From Crocinitomix algicola (lineage in GTDB: Bacteria; Bacteroidota; Bacteroidia; Flavobacteriales_D; Crocinitomicaceae), in contig NZ_LYPF02000016.1 of NCBI RefSeq assembly GCF_001661595.2, positions 1-64,000 on the forward strand: a DNA stretch of 64,000 bases, written 5' to 3'. Each line of letters begins with the position of its first letter. Position 1 is the first letter of the stretch. The notes beneath the pieces are model-generated. The model had not been told where the DNA came from and did not search any database. It saw nothing but the letters and a program-made list of their open reading frames with translations. A program made the position numbers and the translations under genes. Shown here one piece after another: positions 5,094 through 12,014 of this stretch.

Positions 5094-5126
5094 AATCCCG
5101 ATCACCTTGGCTAAATGATCGGGATT
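5094..5126. terminator. Hairpin between convergent genes
   Basis: Perfect 11-bp inverted repeat (AATCCCGATCA at 5094-5104, TGATCGGGATT at 5116-5126, 11-nt loop) in the gap between the convergent deacetylase and barrel genes. It lacks a clear T tract on either side, so a terminator or 3'-end stabilising hairpin is inferred from position only. Confidence 0.45.
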
Positions 5127-5343: not shown

Positions 5344-6159
5344 TTAGAAGTGGAATGAGACCCCAAAACTTAAAGGATATGCCACTTCAGACTTTTCTTC
5401 TTCATACAGCGATAACAAGTTATAATTCGCAAACAAACCGAAATCATTATATCCCACCCGTACAGTTCCCATCAACTCAAACGCATTAAGATTATACCTT
5501 CCTTTTATCTTGGTTTTAAACATACCGTCAGGCGTATCATATTTGTATTTAACGTTTGATCCTAATCTTACACCTCCAATAGCACCAAAAGCTATATGAA
5601 AATTTTTGCTGTCATTCTTAGATGTGTTGATTTGAAACATTAAAGGAACACGCAATGTGGTCATTCGTAATTGATTTTTGGTAAATCCAGAAGTCATATT
5701 TGTATCGATTATTGCAAGTGTCGTATCACCATTCGCAAAATACTCTGCTTTTGAATTTGACAATCCATACCGACTATTGGTAATACCTAATCCCGTTACA
5801 AGGCCAAAATACTCCTTAATAATAGGAATGCGTTGCTCCGCGAAGTTAATGTTATAGACAAAAGATTGAGCAGGGTCTAAATTCAAGTGTTCACTTTGAA
5901 AATCATTATTAAAATTGCCGTTAACTGGATAATTAATTCCGACTTCAAATCCCGACCAATAGGTAAGGTCTCCATGGGATGCTTTTTTCGATTCTTTGCC
6001 ATTATCTTCATCATCTACTTGTAAAGTATCAGATCCTATTACAATAAATTCTAAATTTCCAATTTTAAATCGCGTGGTATCAGTTTCTACTTGTGCGAAC
6101 AAATTTGCACTAAAAAAAGCTGCAAAAGTTAATAGTAATATATGTTTCATTGTCTTCAT
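5344..6159 (-). CDS. PorT-like outer-membrane beta-barrel protein, ECF sigma target
   Basis: A 271-residue exported protein. Signal peptide: MKTMKHILLL to LFAQ (cleavage about residue 22). An acidic linker (DDEDNGKESKK) around residues 48-60 is followed by alternating hydrophobic strands ending SFGVSFHF, the terminal aromatic strand usual for outer-membrane barrels. It resembles the PorT/outer-membrane beta-barrel domain family; the function is unknown. It follows the sigma/anti-sigma operon on the same strand and has its own ECF-type promoter (6211-6236), identical in core to the promoter of the sigma gene. It is therefore the probable regulon member of that sigma factor, perhaps acting in envelope homeostasis. 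Confidence 0.8.
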   Translation of the reverse strand: MKTMKHILLLTFAAFFSANLFAQVETDTTRFKIGNLEFIVIGSDTLQVDDEDNGKESKKASHGDLTYWSGFEVGINYPVNGNFNNDFQSEHLNLDPAQSFVYNINFAEQRIPIIKEYFGLVTGLGITNSRYGLSNSKAEYFANGDTTLAIIDTNMTSGFTKNQLRMTTLRVPLMFQINTSKNDSKNFHIAFGAIGGVRLGSNVKYKYDTPDGMFKTKIKGRYNLNAFELMGTVRVGYNDFGLFANYNLLSLYEEEKSEVAYPLSFGVSFHF

Positions 6160-6210: not shown

Positions 6211-6236
6211 GACGCTGTAACAAGAAATAAGTTACA
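6211..6236 (-). promoter_or_regulatory. ECF sigma-dependent promoter of the barrel gene
   Basis: Minus strand: TGTAAC (6236-6231), 16 nt, CGTCCC beginning at 6214. This is the standard ECF -35 (xGTAAC) and -10 (CGTC) layout with canonical spacing. The same core and the same 16-nt spacer occur before the sigma gene itself. The -35 element lies immediately beyond the anti-sigma stop, and the expected transcript start leaves a leader of about 45 nt. Confidence 0.75.
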
Positions 6237-6237
6237 G

Positions 6238-7284
6238 TTATCTTGATTTTTTTCTTTCAAATTCAAATTTTCCAAAAGAAAAGGAATACGCTACATAAGT
6301 ATCACTTTCTATATCTTTATCACGTGTAAACTTCACCTCACGATTTACTACATCTCCAGCAGCCTGGGTCAATAGTTTATATGGTTCTTCTTTTCTAATT
6401 TTTAACGGCCTGTTTAATGCTATGAATTCCGCTTCATCATTAATAGGCTTTTCGGATAATGAGTCAAGTGGAGTTAACGTTAAATTGAAATCTGGATCTG
6501 CGTTTTCTATCTTTTCAAGCGGCGATAAATCAATGGCTGGAATACTATCTTTCGATTCAGCAATTTCATAGGAAACAGACTCGTCTAGGAAACTTTTCTT
6601 CTCCGCTTTATTTTCAAATTTTTCTTTGTTCTGTACACTCAAATGTTCATGATTACTCTCTGCTAAATTCTCATTATTTTCAATAATAGTAGTATGATTT
6701 AGCGATGGTCGATTTTCAATCGTTCTAACATATCTCACCAAATTTCTATCTGTATTGTCCATCTTTGGAGAGTATGATTGATAATACCCATTCCAGGCAA
6801 ATCCAATGAGAACTAATCCTACAGCAGCGATCGAAGCAACACGAGAAACAACATTCATTCGCACTATATATCCACCTTTCTTCAATTCAGACTTTTCCGA
6901 ATATGTAATTTGAGGATCTGGTTTTAAAAAACTGGCTTGATAGGTTTTAAACTCCTTCTCAAGGCCATGCTTTAGAATATACTGTTGTAACGTTACTAAA
7001 TGTTGATCACATAATTCACCTTCCACCGCAGCCACCATAAAATCATCTACAATTGCAGGATTTATAATTAAATTCCCCTCATCAAATTTGAGATCCTTCT
7101 TGTCCACAAATGTGGCGGTGGTTGGAAATAATTCAAAGTCACCAAAATCTTCCTCTAATTCAGCTTTAAGATCTGGGTTAACCTCAAGAAAACACTTCAA
7201 ATCATTTCGATCTTCGTGACTTAAATTCCCTTCCGCATAATCTAAAAAGTATGCCTCGTAATTATGTCTATTAATTTTCTCCAT
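6238..7284 (-). CDS. Membrane-anchored anti-sigma-like protein with duplicated N-terminal module
   Basis: A 348-residue protein encoded 4 nt after the ECF sigma gene, so in the usual anti-sigma position. Residues 1-145 are cytosolic-type, one hydrophobic helix lies at about 147-165, and the rest is a low-complexity, probably periplasmic region rich in Glu, Asn and Ser. The N-terminal part holds two similar helical segments offset by 70 residues (AEGNL with L29 and FL32-33; VEGEL with L99 and YI102-103). These resemble the N-terminal helices of Bacteroidetes anti-sigma-like proteins. No zinc-binding HxxxCxxC motif is present. The role as anti-sigma factor is inferred from context and architecture. 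Confidence 0.68.
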   Translation of the reverse strand: MEKINRHNYEAYFLDYAEGNLSHEDRNDLKCFLEVNPDLKAELEEDFGDFELFPTTATFVDKKDLKFDEGNLIINPAIVDDFMVAAVEGELCDQHLVTLQQYILKHGLEKEFKTYQASFLKPDPQITYSEKSELKKGGYIVRMNVVSRVASIAAVGLVLIGFAWNGYYQSYSPKMDNTDRNLVRYVRTIENRPSLNHTTIIENNENLAESNHEHLSVQNKEKFENKAEKKSFLDESVSYEIAESKDSIPAIDLSPLEKIENADPDFNLTLTPLDSLSEKPINDEAEFIALNRPLKIRKEEPYKLLTQAAGDVVNREVKFTRDKDIESDTYVAYSFSFGKFEFERKKSR

Positions 7285-7288
7285 CTTC

Positions 7289-7777
7289 TTATTCTAAAAC
7301 TGCTTCAACACTAATTAATATTTCTTTTAATTTTTTACGAGCACGAAAGATGTAAACCTTAACTTGACTTTCTGTTAAGTCAGTAATTTCACCGATCTCG
7401 TCGTAACCGTATCCTTCATAATCTCTCAACAAAACAACAGTACGCTGTATTTCAGTTAATTGATCTAAGGCCAGCTCTAATTGTTTTTGCAAATCTAAAT
7501 TACGTATCGGTTTTTCCACCATCACCTCATCTATCTTTCCAACCTCATCCATATACTTCTCTTTTCTTATCAAGTCAATTAACGTATGATGCGCTGTTGT
7601 AAACAAATACGATTTTGCTTTTCCAAAATTAATTCCATCCTTCTTTACCCAAACTTTCGCAAAAGTATCTTGCACAATATCCTTTGCAGCATCCACATTT
7701 TTTATATGTTTCAGCACAAACCGATAAATATTATCAGAATAATTATCTACACAAATATTGTACTCTCTGGTTGTCAT
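7289..7777 (-). CDS. ECF-type RNA polymerase sigma factor
   Basis: A 162-residue sigma-70 family protein with only regions 2 and 4. Region 2 spans about residues 8-75 (DIVQDTFAKVW, then the LIDLIRKEK helix). Region 4 covers about 100-155 with a helix-turn-helix (YGYDEIGEITDLTESQVKVYIFRARKKL). I chose the ATG at 7777 (MTTREY); an in-frame TTG 39 nt upstream lies inside the promoter and cannot be transcribed from it. The gene heads an operon with the anti-sigma-like gene. The upstream ECF promoter indicates autoregulation. Confidence 0.92.
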   Translation of the reverse strand: MTTREYNICVDNYSDNIYRFVLKHIKNVDAAKDIVQDTFAKVWVKKDGINFGKAKSYLFTTAHHTLIDLIRKEKYMDEVGKIDEVMVEKPIRNLDLQKQLELALDQLTEIQRTVVLLRDYEGYGYDEIGEITDLTESQVKVYIFRARKKLKEILISVEAVLE

Positions 7778-7798
7778 TTTTTTTGAACTTATTGGTGG

Positions 7799-7824
7799 GA
7801 CGTTCGAATAAAACAAAAGTTACA
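7799..7824 (-). promoter_or_regulatory. ECF sigma-dependent autoregulatory promoter
   Basis: Minus strand: TGTAAC (7824-7819), 16 nt, CGTCCC beginning at 7802. Core elements and spacing match the promoter of the barrel gene at 6211-6236. A transcript starting 7-10 nt after the -10 element leaves a leader of about 15 nt before the sigma ATG. Confidence 0.75.
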
Positions 7825-10717: not shown

Positions 10718-11406
10718 TTGATTTAACTCGCATTAAATTAATTCTGATAATTCTTAGTTTCTTAGGGTCAAACAGACTTTTTGCACAAGACTTTAAAGAC
10801 AAAATTCCCTCAAAAACCAAAAACGCTATCAACCTAAGTTATGGATTATATACCTTTTATGATGGCATGCCTATTACCCATAAAAGTGCTTACAATGGTA
10901 AAACCAGGCTTTCAAGAGGGTTTGGAATAAGCTATTTGCGAATGACTTCTGATAAAAGAGCTTGGTCGCTGTCAACTAATTTATATTTTTACCTACTCGA
11001 AAAAAAAAGTTCTACTTTTTCGATAGGAACAGTTACTTACAAAAATTTTATGACTGGGCAATTCGATTATTATATGAAGGTTTATGCTACGAAAACTTCG
11101 AGTATATTTGCTTCAGCAGGCTTAATGTTTCGAGGCGGGTATGAGTCAGTACATGGTGGCTGGTATGGACCAGCTCATGCCTATGTACAAACACATATAA
11201 TGCTAGATGCTGGTATTCCAATAGGGCTAAATTACATGTATTATCTAGGCAAACATCTTCATGTTAATTTGGAACTAGAACATACTGTTTTTCCTTTTAT
11301 TTATTCTTCGAGGATAGTTTCGAATTATCTTTATCGCAATGACTGGGGCAAAGGAGCTTCTCGGAATATGACAAAACTACAAGTTGGGTTTGGTGTTAAT
11401 TTTTAG
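10714..11406 (+). CDS. Exported protein, probable outer-membrane barrel
   Basis: I do not recognise the family. 230 residues: signal peptide IKLILIILSFLGSNRLFAQ with cleavage near residue 25, then alternating strands rich in Tyr, Phe and Gly (INLSYGLYTFYDG; LMFRGGYESVHGGWYGP) and a final strand MTKLQVGFGVNF ending in Phe. This pattern suggests an 8-10-stranded outer-membrane beta-barrel. Its start overlaps the stop of the preceding sorting-domain gene by 4 nt (ATGA), so the two are translationally coupled and the barrel may be the partner of that exported protein. Confidence 0.65.
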   Translation: MIDLTRIKLILIILSFLGSNRLFAQDFKDKIPSKTKNAINLSYGLYTFYDGMPITHKSAYNGKTRLSRGFGISYLRMTSDKRAWSLSTNLYFYLLEKKSSTFSIGTVTYKNFMTGQFDYYMKVYATKTSSIFASAGLMFRGGYESVHGGWYGPAHAYVQTHIMLDAGIPIGLNYMYYLGKHLHVNLELEHTVFPFIYSSRIVSNYLYRNDWGKGASRNMTKLQVGFGVNF

Positions 11407-11417
11407 GGTTAAGTTAT

Positions 11418-11425
11418 TACCTTCG
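11418..11425 (+). promoter_or_regulatory. -7-like box 4 nt before start codon (leaderless)
   Basis: TACCTTCG differs from TAnnTTTG at one position and ends exactly 4 nt before the ATG at 11430, the same spacing seen at five other genes in the window. Confidence 0.4.
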
Positions 11426-11429
11426 CAAT

Positions 11430-12014
11430 ATGCCAAAGCATCACCATTACATCGTATTTAAACCCCAAGGCTTTTTAAGCCAATTCATTGTCAACGGGAA
11501 ACGTAAAAAAAAGCACAAAATGCTCGGTGAACTATTTGATTTCGCTCCAAACACCATGGCTATTGGTCGTTTAGATGAAGACTCTGAAGGTCTTCTCTTG
11601 CTCACCACCGATGGCAAGGTAAGTTTTGAAATTCTGAGCGCAAAATATGAAAAAGAATATTGGGTTCAGGTTGATGGCCTTGTTGACAATAAAGCCATTG
11701 AACAGCTGAAAAAAGGTGTAGAAATTGGCATTAACGGCAAAAAATACTTCACAAAACCTTGCAAAGCAAAAAAAATTACGACTCCAGACTTACCAGCAAG
11801 AACAAAAAAAATTCGAGATAGCAGACATGGTCCTACTTCATGGGTATCTATCACTTTACGTGAAGGAAAATTTCGACAAGTTCGAAAAATGACTGCTGCC
11901 GTTGGATTTCCAACACTCAGGCTTATTCGAATCAGAATAGACACCATCTATCTAAATAACATGCAACCAGGAGATGTACTACCTGTAAACACCTTATTTA
12001 CAAACAAAGACTAA
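11430..12014 (+). CDS. Pseudouridine synthase, RsuA/RluE type
   Basis: A 194-residue enzyme that isomerises a uridine in rRNA. The catalytic-Asp motif is GRLDEDSEGLLLLTTDG near residues 48-64 (Asp in GRLD). The REGKFRQVRKMTAAVGFP segment near 150-167 is the conserved C-terminal motif of the RsuA/RluB/E/F group. There is no N-terminal S4 domain, which fits RluE (23S rRNA position 2457 in E. coli), but the target cannot be assigned with certainty. The protein starts directly with the core (HYIVFKPQGFLSQF). The start codon lies 4 nt after a promoter-like box. Confidence 0.9.
   Translation: MPKHHHYIVFKPQGFLSQFIVNGKRKKKHKMLGELFDFAPNTMAIGRLDEDSEGLLLLTTDGKVSFEILSAKYEKEYWVQVDGLVDNKAIEQLKKGVEIGINGKKYFTKPCKAKKITTPDLPARTKKIRDSRHGPTSWVSITLREGKFRQVRKMTAAVGFPTLRLIRIRIDTIYLNNMQPGDVLPVNTLFTNKD

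Follow-up and report, generated by a model that had tools for sequence, protein, structure and literature searches.

Organization of the locus

The stretch of DNA analysed here, referred to as the window, comprises positions 1-64,000 of contig NZ_LYPF02000016.1 of Crocinitomix algicola (GCF_001661595.2). Its minus strand carries, in this order, a gene for an extracytoplasmic function (ECF) sigma factor (7777-7289), a gene for a membrane protein (7284-6238) and a gene for an outer-membrane barrel (6159-5344), with one copy of a shared promoter element before the first gene and another before the third. The features of the locus are the following, with lengths in nucleotides (nt) or amino acids (aa):

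7799..7824, minus strand: putative autoregulatory ECF promoter, TGTAAC-N16-CGTC then CCAC, before the sigma gene (motif and conservation)
7289..7777, minus strand: ECF sigma factor, 162 aa, start ATG 7777 (Pfam Sigma70_r2 and Sigma70_r4_2)
6238..7284, minus strand: anti-sigma-like membrane protein, 348 aa (without a Pfam assignment above cut-off)
7075..7284, minus strand: helical unit 1 of the anti-sigma candidate, residues 1-70 (model helices 9-17, 23-35 and 37-47)
6874..7074, minus strand: helical unit 2, a second copy, residues 71-137 (hhalign of unit 1 against unit 2)
6784..6858, minus strand: predicted single transmembrane (TM) helix of the anti-sigma candidate, residues 143-167 (a helix in the model, hydrophobic by eye, called without a TM predictor)
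6241..6411, minus strand: predicted folded C-terminal domain of the anti-sigma candidate, residues 292-348, beta-alpha-beta-beta-beta, taken as periplasmic (per-residue model confidence, pLDDT, of 83-94 for the block)
6211..6236, minus strand: putative second promoter copy, before the barrel gene and 1 nt past the anti-sigma stop codon (motif and conservation)
5344..6159, minus strand: outer-membrane beta-barrel protein, 271 aa (Pfam OMP_b-brl_2 and structure model)
5094..5126, minus strand: terminator-like hairpin of 14 pairs, 3' of the barrel gene (suggestive only)

The sigma factor and its start

The sigma factor scores above the cut-offs of both Pfam families (Sigma70_r2, 39.9 bits; Sigma70_r4_2, 63.9 bits) and of the sigma70-ECF model TIGR02937 (82.3 bits, cut-off 42.9). 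With 162 aa and only sigma regions 2 and 4, it has the composition and size (about 160-200 aa) of an ECF sigma factor. The best-scoring NCBIfam family is sigma_PG0214 (the GFO_1088/PG0214 family, NF058625), but at 113.3 bits the protein stays under the cut-off of 130 and is not a member. Its nearest relatives in named records are metagenome-assembled genomes of Crocinitomix (78-80% identity), and the own genome holds 24 matches to it, self counted.

The longest open reading frame (ORF) of the sigma gene starts at TTG 7816, within the promoter 7824-7799. The ATG at 7777 is preferred, because transcription from this promoter could begin only downstream of TTG 7816, and the alignment of most relatives begins at residue 1 of the protein that starts at 7777. 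An earlier sequence-only reading of this DNA had placed the start at 7777, and this assignment is retained.

Promoter elements before the sigma and barrel genes

That reading had also described two TGTAAC/CGTC sites with a 16-nt gap, and both are present as described. The site before the sigma gene (7824-7799, minus) reads TGTAACTTTTGTTTTATTCGAACGTC and ends 21 nt ahead of the sigma ATG, whereas the site before the barrel gene (6236-6211, minus) reads TGTAACTTATTTCTTGTTACAGCGTC and lies 1 nt past the stop codon of the middle gene; GTAAC and CGTC are separated by 16 nt at both. These are the only two matches to TGTAAC/CGTC with a gap of 14-18 nt in the whole window, as compared to a mean of 0.28 matches in window shuffles, in which two matches were reached in 3 of 100.

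Conservation was followed in 80 related sigma loci plus the window (81 loci). In 77 of the 81 (71 with a narrower pattern), GTAAC and GTC stand at ECF spacing ahead of the sigma gene, and the gap from GTAAC to NGTC, counted to GTC, is 16 nt in 48 of these promoters, 17 nt in 28 and 14 nt in 1. The 16-nt geometry put forward earlier therefore holds at both window sites and gives way in relatives to a spacing of 16 or 17 nt. The pooled consensus of the sigma promoters is CTGTAACTTTT followed by (C/A)GTC(C/T)TA(C), and the -10 box is better written (C/A)GTC(C/T)(T)A. Of 76 sigma loci, 32 have a second copy of the motif directly past the anti-sigma gene. In the sense strand of these loci (751,664 bases) the pattern has 111 matches, against none in the antisense strand. 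Among 40 whole genomes, own included, a sigma orthologue (E<=1e-42) was found in 27, with the motif ahead of the sigma gene in all 27 and a second copy within the downstream span scanned in 15. Judged by this conservation, the sigma gene would carry ahead of it the promoter expected of an autoregulated ECF sigma factor.

The barrel gene shows the same pattern. A profile search found the barrel in 39 of the 40 genomes, and of the 30 barrel loci examined, 27 have the motif ahead of it, counted over a span from -260 to +110 relative to the longest barrel ORF. By background alone, about 0.006 matches would be expected per upstream window (4 matches in 260,222 strand-bases). In G028, G032 and G025 the motif overlaps the beginning of that ORF, inside its first 90 nt, and so precedes a later start codon. 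The three loci lacking it are G004 and G008, where the stretch starts at most 19 nt before the barrel and the contig ends, and G006. Ten barrels are preceded by the motif though no anti-sigma gene lies upstream in the stretch examined (G015, G017, G018, G021, G022, G023, G024, G028, G032 and G039). The upstream stretch of G017 is just 304 nt; in G023 the barrel and sigma genes adjoin on opposite strands, and G028 has the motif ahead of the barrel although no sigma was found at E<=1e-42.

Sigma and barrel promoters also tend to agree within one genome. The first base of the -10 element is C at both promoters in 18 of 25 genomes, non-C at both in 6, and C at the sigma gene with A at the barrel gene in 1. 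The two thus agree in kind (C or not C) in 24 of the 25 (Fisher p 4e-5, not corrected for phylogeny) and are exactly the same base in 20. Left out of this comparison were G004 and G033 (no barrel promoter read) and G014 and G028 (no sigma at E<=1e-42). Conservation, the motif at barrels outside the operon and the agreement of the first -10 base all bear out the proposal of the sequence-only reading that one promoter type joins the sigma factor, the anti-sigma-like protein and the barrel. As the conserved promoter is shared, autoregulation and control of the barrel by the same sigma factor would follow, and a regulatory link between the two genes is almost certain from the comparative evidence. 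The predicted promoter pair is retained in the examined relatives of the order and in some beyond.

Pattern counts by themselves are weak and at chance level; on the sequence comparisons, it is placement and conservation that make the motif strong. Relaxed versions in the own genome fare little differently from reversed controls (TGTAAC-N17-GTCNNA, 7 matches against 4; the N18 version, 3 against 5), and a regulon drawn from a genome-wide pattern search alone was rejected as unusable, the counts being near control level. From the own-genome matches, those before the sigma gene, the barrel gene and two DUF5686 genes were retained, the one on contig C4 coming from the strict pattern and the one on contig C42 from TGTAAC-N17-GTCNNA; apart from two further matches before genes, described below, the other inspected matches are intragenic or have no gene starting after them, with three of the eight matches to the strict pattern inspected singly.

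No description of TGTAAC promoters of Bacteroidota ECF sigma factors was found in the available portions of the open-licence PMC literature. Excerpts of one paper describe a CGT-box promoter class tied to type IX secretion system genes in Flavobacterium psychrophilum (PMC9723704), which may or may not be the window motif.

Distribution of the gene order

In a sample of 118 genomes of the phylum, the barrel was matched (E<=1e-15) in 25, all of which belong to the window's own class or are closer. The listed genomes without a match comprise 4 of the window's class and 16 of other classes, with 73 further ones unlisted. Twenty-three barrel loci were fetched with about 2-4 kb of upstream sequence, and an ECF sigma gene lies upstream of the barrel in 22 of them. 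Sigma gene, one gene and barrel gene are called in this order in 21 of the 22, the barrel ORF of the 22nd not being called. The middle product has a hydrophobic segment in 20 of the 21 by a crude scan, and an anti-sigma profile was matched at E<=0.01 in 14 of the 23 loci. The exception is G032, whose barrel lies elsewhere with the motif in front. Where a gene was called ahead of the barrel in the wider relatives (L220-L242), 2-95 nt separate the two, save for one frame that overlaps by 20 nt. As read from these gene calls, the gene order is class-wide and is not confined to the window's lineage.

The barrel's own promoter copy has a narrower reach. In the wider sample the motif is ahead of the barrel in just 2 of 30 loci read (own and G032), and the predicted copy characterises the order together with some other lineages, among them Marinifilum, where M. 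caeruleilacunae JC070 (L087) and M. fragile JCM 15579 (L095) have sigma, anti-sigma and barrel genes with both putative promoters. An anti-sigma fused to this barrel was also looked for and not found among the 23 fetched loci; the longest barrel frames, 530 and 528 aa, each have a separate gene ahead.

The third gene varies among sigma loci. In some, a GIN head (DUF2807) is present at the N-terminus of the barrel, as tests of L070 and L101 showed. In L047, L051, L052, L059, L061, L075, L084, L107 and L109 it codes for a protein of about 640 residues and not for a barrel, with a SpoIIM domain in L047, the sole one tested; some genomes of the window's taxonomic family have the barrel elsewhere, with the motif retained. 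No account of this gene order was found in the available portions of the open-licence PMC literature, and the available parts of PMC5607195, PMC12045153, PMC12596196 and PMC8999054 contain nothing on this system.

The anti-sigma candidate and the barrel

No Pfam family scores above cut-off for the 348-aa middle protein, and no FecR or FecR_C model reaches Pfam E<=0.1 in it, a distant common fold being still possible. Its residues 1-137 form a tandem duplication: hhalign matches the two units with a probability of 98.5 and an E of 3.5e-15, and none of 60 column shuffles scored above 13.2, as compared to 68.9 for the real pair. In the relatives L037 and L055 three copies of the unit are apparent by eye. 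In the structure model, two units of three helices each are followed by a single TM helix (143-167), a low-confidence stretch and a confident C-terminal domain. Residues of about 172-290 are at or near pLDDT 50 and below and are predicted to form a disordered linker of about 120 residues. The C-terminal domain (about 291-348, ~55 residues) is recognisable in the alignment of relatives.

Searches against known structures gave little. The sequence search of solved structures had a best E of 0.2 with both alignments, Foldseek for the anti-sigma candidate had a best E of 1.1, and the top VIA-align row, retron-Eco7 (Z 5.8), was too weak to use. The available excerpts of PMC7406223 place a class I anti-sigma domain near only 6% of Bacteroidetes ECF sigma factors, and therefore other anti-sigma types are expected in the phylum. 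Gene order and anatomy taken together make it highly probable that the protein encoded at 6238-7284 is an anti-sigma factor.

The barrel protein belongs to OMP_b-brl_2 (PF13568; 38.7 bits over residues 70-246, cut-off 27) and begins with a hydrophobic helix resembling a signal peptide. It is a small OmpA/PagL-like barrel of about residues 64-271 (model pLDDT 85), and its model aligns with PagL (Z 14.3, root-mean-square deviation (rmsd) 2.9, 128 aligned) and with OmpA (Z 13.3, rmsd 3.8, 131 aligned). The terminator-like hairpin at 5094-5126 sits between the convergent barrel and polysaccharide deacetylase genes; 2 such hairpins occur in 3 kb, against 1.1 expected.

A sister system with a fused barrel

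A paralogue of the window sigma, 47% identical to it, is encoded on contig C19 of the own genome and, at 134.1 bits, does exceed the NF058625 cut-off. In the C19 locus (L113:8656-10811, 10780-11808) the sigma gene is followed by a gene for a 556-residue protein, an anti-sigma-like PorP/SprF fusion, and then by a PorP/SprF (type IX secretion) gene. The C-terminal barrel of the fused protein scores 105.1 bits against TIGR03519 (cut-off 90.55). The window anti-sigma aligns with the N-terminus of this protein (hhalign probability 97, E 5.5e-11), the helical unit and the TM region being common to both. The fused protein was matched in 16 of 40 genomes (E<=1e-25), not all at full length.

The element upstream of the PorP-linked sigma gene has the -35 sequence GTAACTTTT, as at the window sigma gene, but a different -10: TTGTTTTA, compared to CGTCCCA in the window system. 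In 12 genomes compared by eye, the sister sigma gene has the -10 sequence TTGTTTTA in 11 and TTGTATTA in 1, with the same -35. On this sequence evidence, the genome holds two sister systems, with the barrel fused in one and separate in the other.

A possible outer-membrane-sensing circuit

We favour, at a rough probability of 0.4, the reading that the locus is an autoregulated circuit of ECF sigma factor, anti-sigma factor and outer-membrane barrel, with the barrel taking part in sensing. From its anatomy, the tandem N-terminal helical units of the anti-sigma factor would hold the sigma factor at the inner membrane. The protein would cross this membrane once, and its disordered linker of ~120 residues would span the periplasm. 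Anatomy and the fused sister protein together suggest that the small C-terminal domain may read the outer membrane, most likely in dependence on the neighbouring barrel, by contact or by assembly state. If the barrel were missing or the outer membrane disturbed, the anti-sigma factor would let go, by release or proteolysis, and the freed sigma factor would raise its own operon and the barrel, which would reset the loop. The locus would then be a two-polypeptide counterpart of the Dma/Reo dual-membrane anti-sigma factors described below. The parts of this proposal differ in strength: a theme of envelope or outer-membrane homeostasis is probable, whereas a part for the barrel in sensing is tentative, with slightly less than even odds. 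It is less likely than not, though conceivable, that a class-wide family exists in which a dual-membrane-spanning anti-sigma is built of two proteins, its periplasmic end docking on a dedicated barrel made under the sigma factor, and in which fused and split sister circuits of one genome, alike at the -35 and different at the -10, report the assembly state of the outer membrane to RNA polymerase whether or not the link is covalent.

Several observations weigh against this reading. The sampled genomes are kin, so the counts are not independent events. The strict TGTAAC-N16-CGTC pattern has 8 matches in the 3.7-Mb own genome against 7 for the reversed control, and TGTAAC-N17-GTCNTA summed over 40 genomes has 86 against 86. 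The antisense strand of the sigma loci has 0 matches, which is below what chance patterns of like letters suggest, the reversed pattern giving 23 and 27 matches per strand in the same loci; the antisense strand of the barrel loci has 1 match in 102,050 bases. The structural matches of the second helical unit to the anti-sigma domains of RsiW (Z 5.0) and MucA (Z 4.7) are too weak to trust. The C-terminal domain persists in relatives whose next gene differs from the barrel. In G006 (98% complete), a search with the window sigma at E<=1e-12 yields the PorP-linked paralogue alone. The barrel gene of this genome is located centrally on a 188-kb contig, lacks the motif and has neither a sigma nor an anti-sigma gene in the 1.5 kb upstream; having the barrel but not the window sigma, this genome implies a role of the barrel's own. 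A profile comparison of the C-terminal domain with the N-terminal stretch of the barrel gave no sign of contact, and mimicry between the anti-sigma end FSFGKFEF and the barrel start FKIGNLEF was considered and rejected: the profile score of 8.2 tops all 60 column shuffles (maximum 8.0) but lies under 4 of the 7 other barrel segments.

About equally likely is that the barrel is an output only. The C-terminal domain of the anti-sigma factor would then read some envelope signal, and the barrel and DUF5686 would strengthen or repair the outer membrane without feedback. This agrees with the barrel having its own sigma promoter and, in the ten genomes named above, no anti-sigma gene upstream, so that a fixed ratio to the anti-sigma factor is not needed; it agrees also with the C-terminal domain being kept where the next gene is not the barrel, with the barrel retained in G006 without the sigma, and with the motif-bearing DUF5686 genes as plain candidate outputs. 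However, there is no reason why a mere target gene should remain directly behind a sigma and a membrane-protein gene across the class, as the barrel gene does in 22 of the 23 fetched loci, nor would a barrel be expected to be fused to the matching protein of a paralogous system.

Improbable, by comparison, is a promoter read by several ECF sigma factors, with the window sigma as one regulator of the barrel and the loop leaky. The 24 own-genome matches to the window sigma would supply such regulators, and the PorP-linked sigma element has the same -35, though a different -10. The motifs at DUF5686 genes are kept in G006, although a search there did not find the window sigma, and G028 has a barrel with motif and no sigma at the threshold used. 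On the other hand, the barrel motif is missing in G006 along with the sigma itself, sigma and barrel promoters match in kind at the first -10 base, and the two sister systems consistently differ at the -10. The probability is negligible that both sites arose by chance in A+T-rich DNA and do not act as promoters: two matches do arise in 3 of 100 window shuffles and genome counts equal the reversed control, but both places are conserved in tens of genomes, which refutes chance as a general account.

Relation to known systems

RpoE-RseA of E. coli is an autoregulated ECF sigma factor with a single-TM anti-sigma that has a helical cytoplasmic domain and a periplasmic part, and with an outer-membrane protein theme. 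The window pair differs in that a dedicated barrel gene travels with it. In surface signalling of the FecI-FecR-FecA type, a periplasmic domain of the anti-sigma factor is coupled to an outer-membrane barrel of the same gene cluster. The window barrel, however, is like small OmpA-like barrels and not a TonB-dependent receptor, and the middle protein shows no FecR domain at the Pfam threshold given above.

Closer in kind are Dma1 and Dma2 of Bacteroides thetaiotaomicron, which the available excerpts describe as dual membrane-spanning anti-sigma factors with a C-terminal barrel, working with the ECF21 sigma factors Das1 and Das2 (PMC13088901). Common to both systems, as far as those excerpts go, are an ECF sigma gene beside an anti-sigma with one TM helix and a long disordered tether, and an outer-membrane theme, the N-terminal part of Dma binding the sigma factor and that of the window protein being a candidate for the same task; in the structure model, the window anti-sigma has a predicted single TM helix and a long, apparently disordered tether. 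The Dma barrel, however, stands at the protein's own C-terminus, whereas in the window a small folded domain closes the anti-sigma chain and a distinct gene, with a putative sigma promoter of its own, codes for the barrel; the window protein also has two N-terminal units, Dma being compared by its description. Since it lacks the C-terminal barrel, the window anti-sigma is not a Dma, but it may work like one.

EcfO-Reo of Bacteroides fragilis and Phocaeicola vulgatus is, in the available parts of its descriptions, a stress-induced sigma/anti-sigma pair with a proposed role in the outer-membrane stress response (PMC13114119, PMC9308784). Reo spans both membranes with its barrel fused, and the known EcfO-Reo targets are NigD lipoproteins (PMC13114119, PMC9308784). 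A sigma/anti-sigma pair and the outer-membrane theme are again common to both, and the window barrel differs from that of Reo in being separate.

In the literature available in part, outer-membrane sensing by Bacteroidota ECF systems so far rests on a few barrel-fused anti-sigma factors in gut species. With its conserved gene order, a promoter signal that the eye can pick out and a few candidate targets, the present locus offers a testable counterpart for the rest of the class, and the matched fused and split versions in one genome allow one to ask whether the covalent link is needed. The locus points to a mode of outer-membrane surveillance that is common yet scarcely described.

Other candidate targets

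With the two DUF5686 genes, an outer-membrane family whose name denotes an unknown function gains a first clue to its regulation; no account of DUF5686 regulation was found in the available portions of the open-licence PMC literature. The C42 copy (L161:1411-3933, minus; PF18939, 465.9 bits) is preceded by TGTAAC-N17-GTCTTA. Among the 24 loci scanned (L162-L185) of 30 returned, 13 have the motif: all 11 at 65% identity or more (own included) and 2 of the 13 at 38-44%. The close set has a TGTC box and not CGTC. At the C4 copy (L192, contig C4 from 216700), 21 nt separate TGTAAC-N16-CGTC from the ATG, just as at the sigma gene, and a relaxed motif is present in 12 of the 16 stretches fetched for this paralogue. 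One of the misses is just 142 nt in length, and L193, L196 and L198 were assessed irrespective of the distance from motif to start. The motif recurs in the genus and is kept at both copies in G006, a genome in which no window sigma turned up; there it may serve other sigma factors or be a relic. DUF5686 as an exclusive target of the window sigma was rejected, as the motif is absent in most distant relatives and persists in G006 without the sigma.

In six close relatives (L033, L034, L035, L037, L039 and L040) a gene for a small exported protein lies about 60-510 nt upstream of the sigma gene, with its own element by eye; the product of L033, the sole one tested, has a TonB_C domain. Such a gene is absent at that place in the window, and in the own genome only larger TonB-like frames match. 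Together, the DUF5686 genes and the small exported protein genes suggest an envelope regulon.

Some further occurrences of the motif were seen. On the evidence of the own genome, it is also ahead of an S41 peptidase gene (C42:243060) and of a weakly GH53-like gene (C2:28859; 21.3 bits, cut-off 24). In G003 and G005 (L139, L140), a different sigma-like gene of 180 aa has TGTAAC-N17-GTC(A/C)TA 114 nt before its start, a possible sigma cascade.

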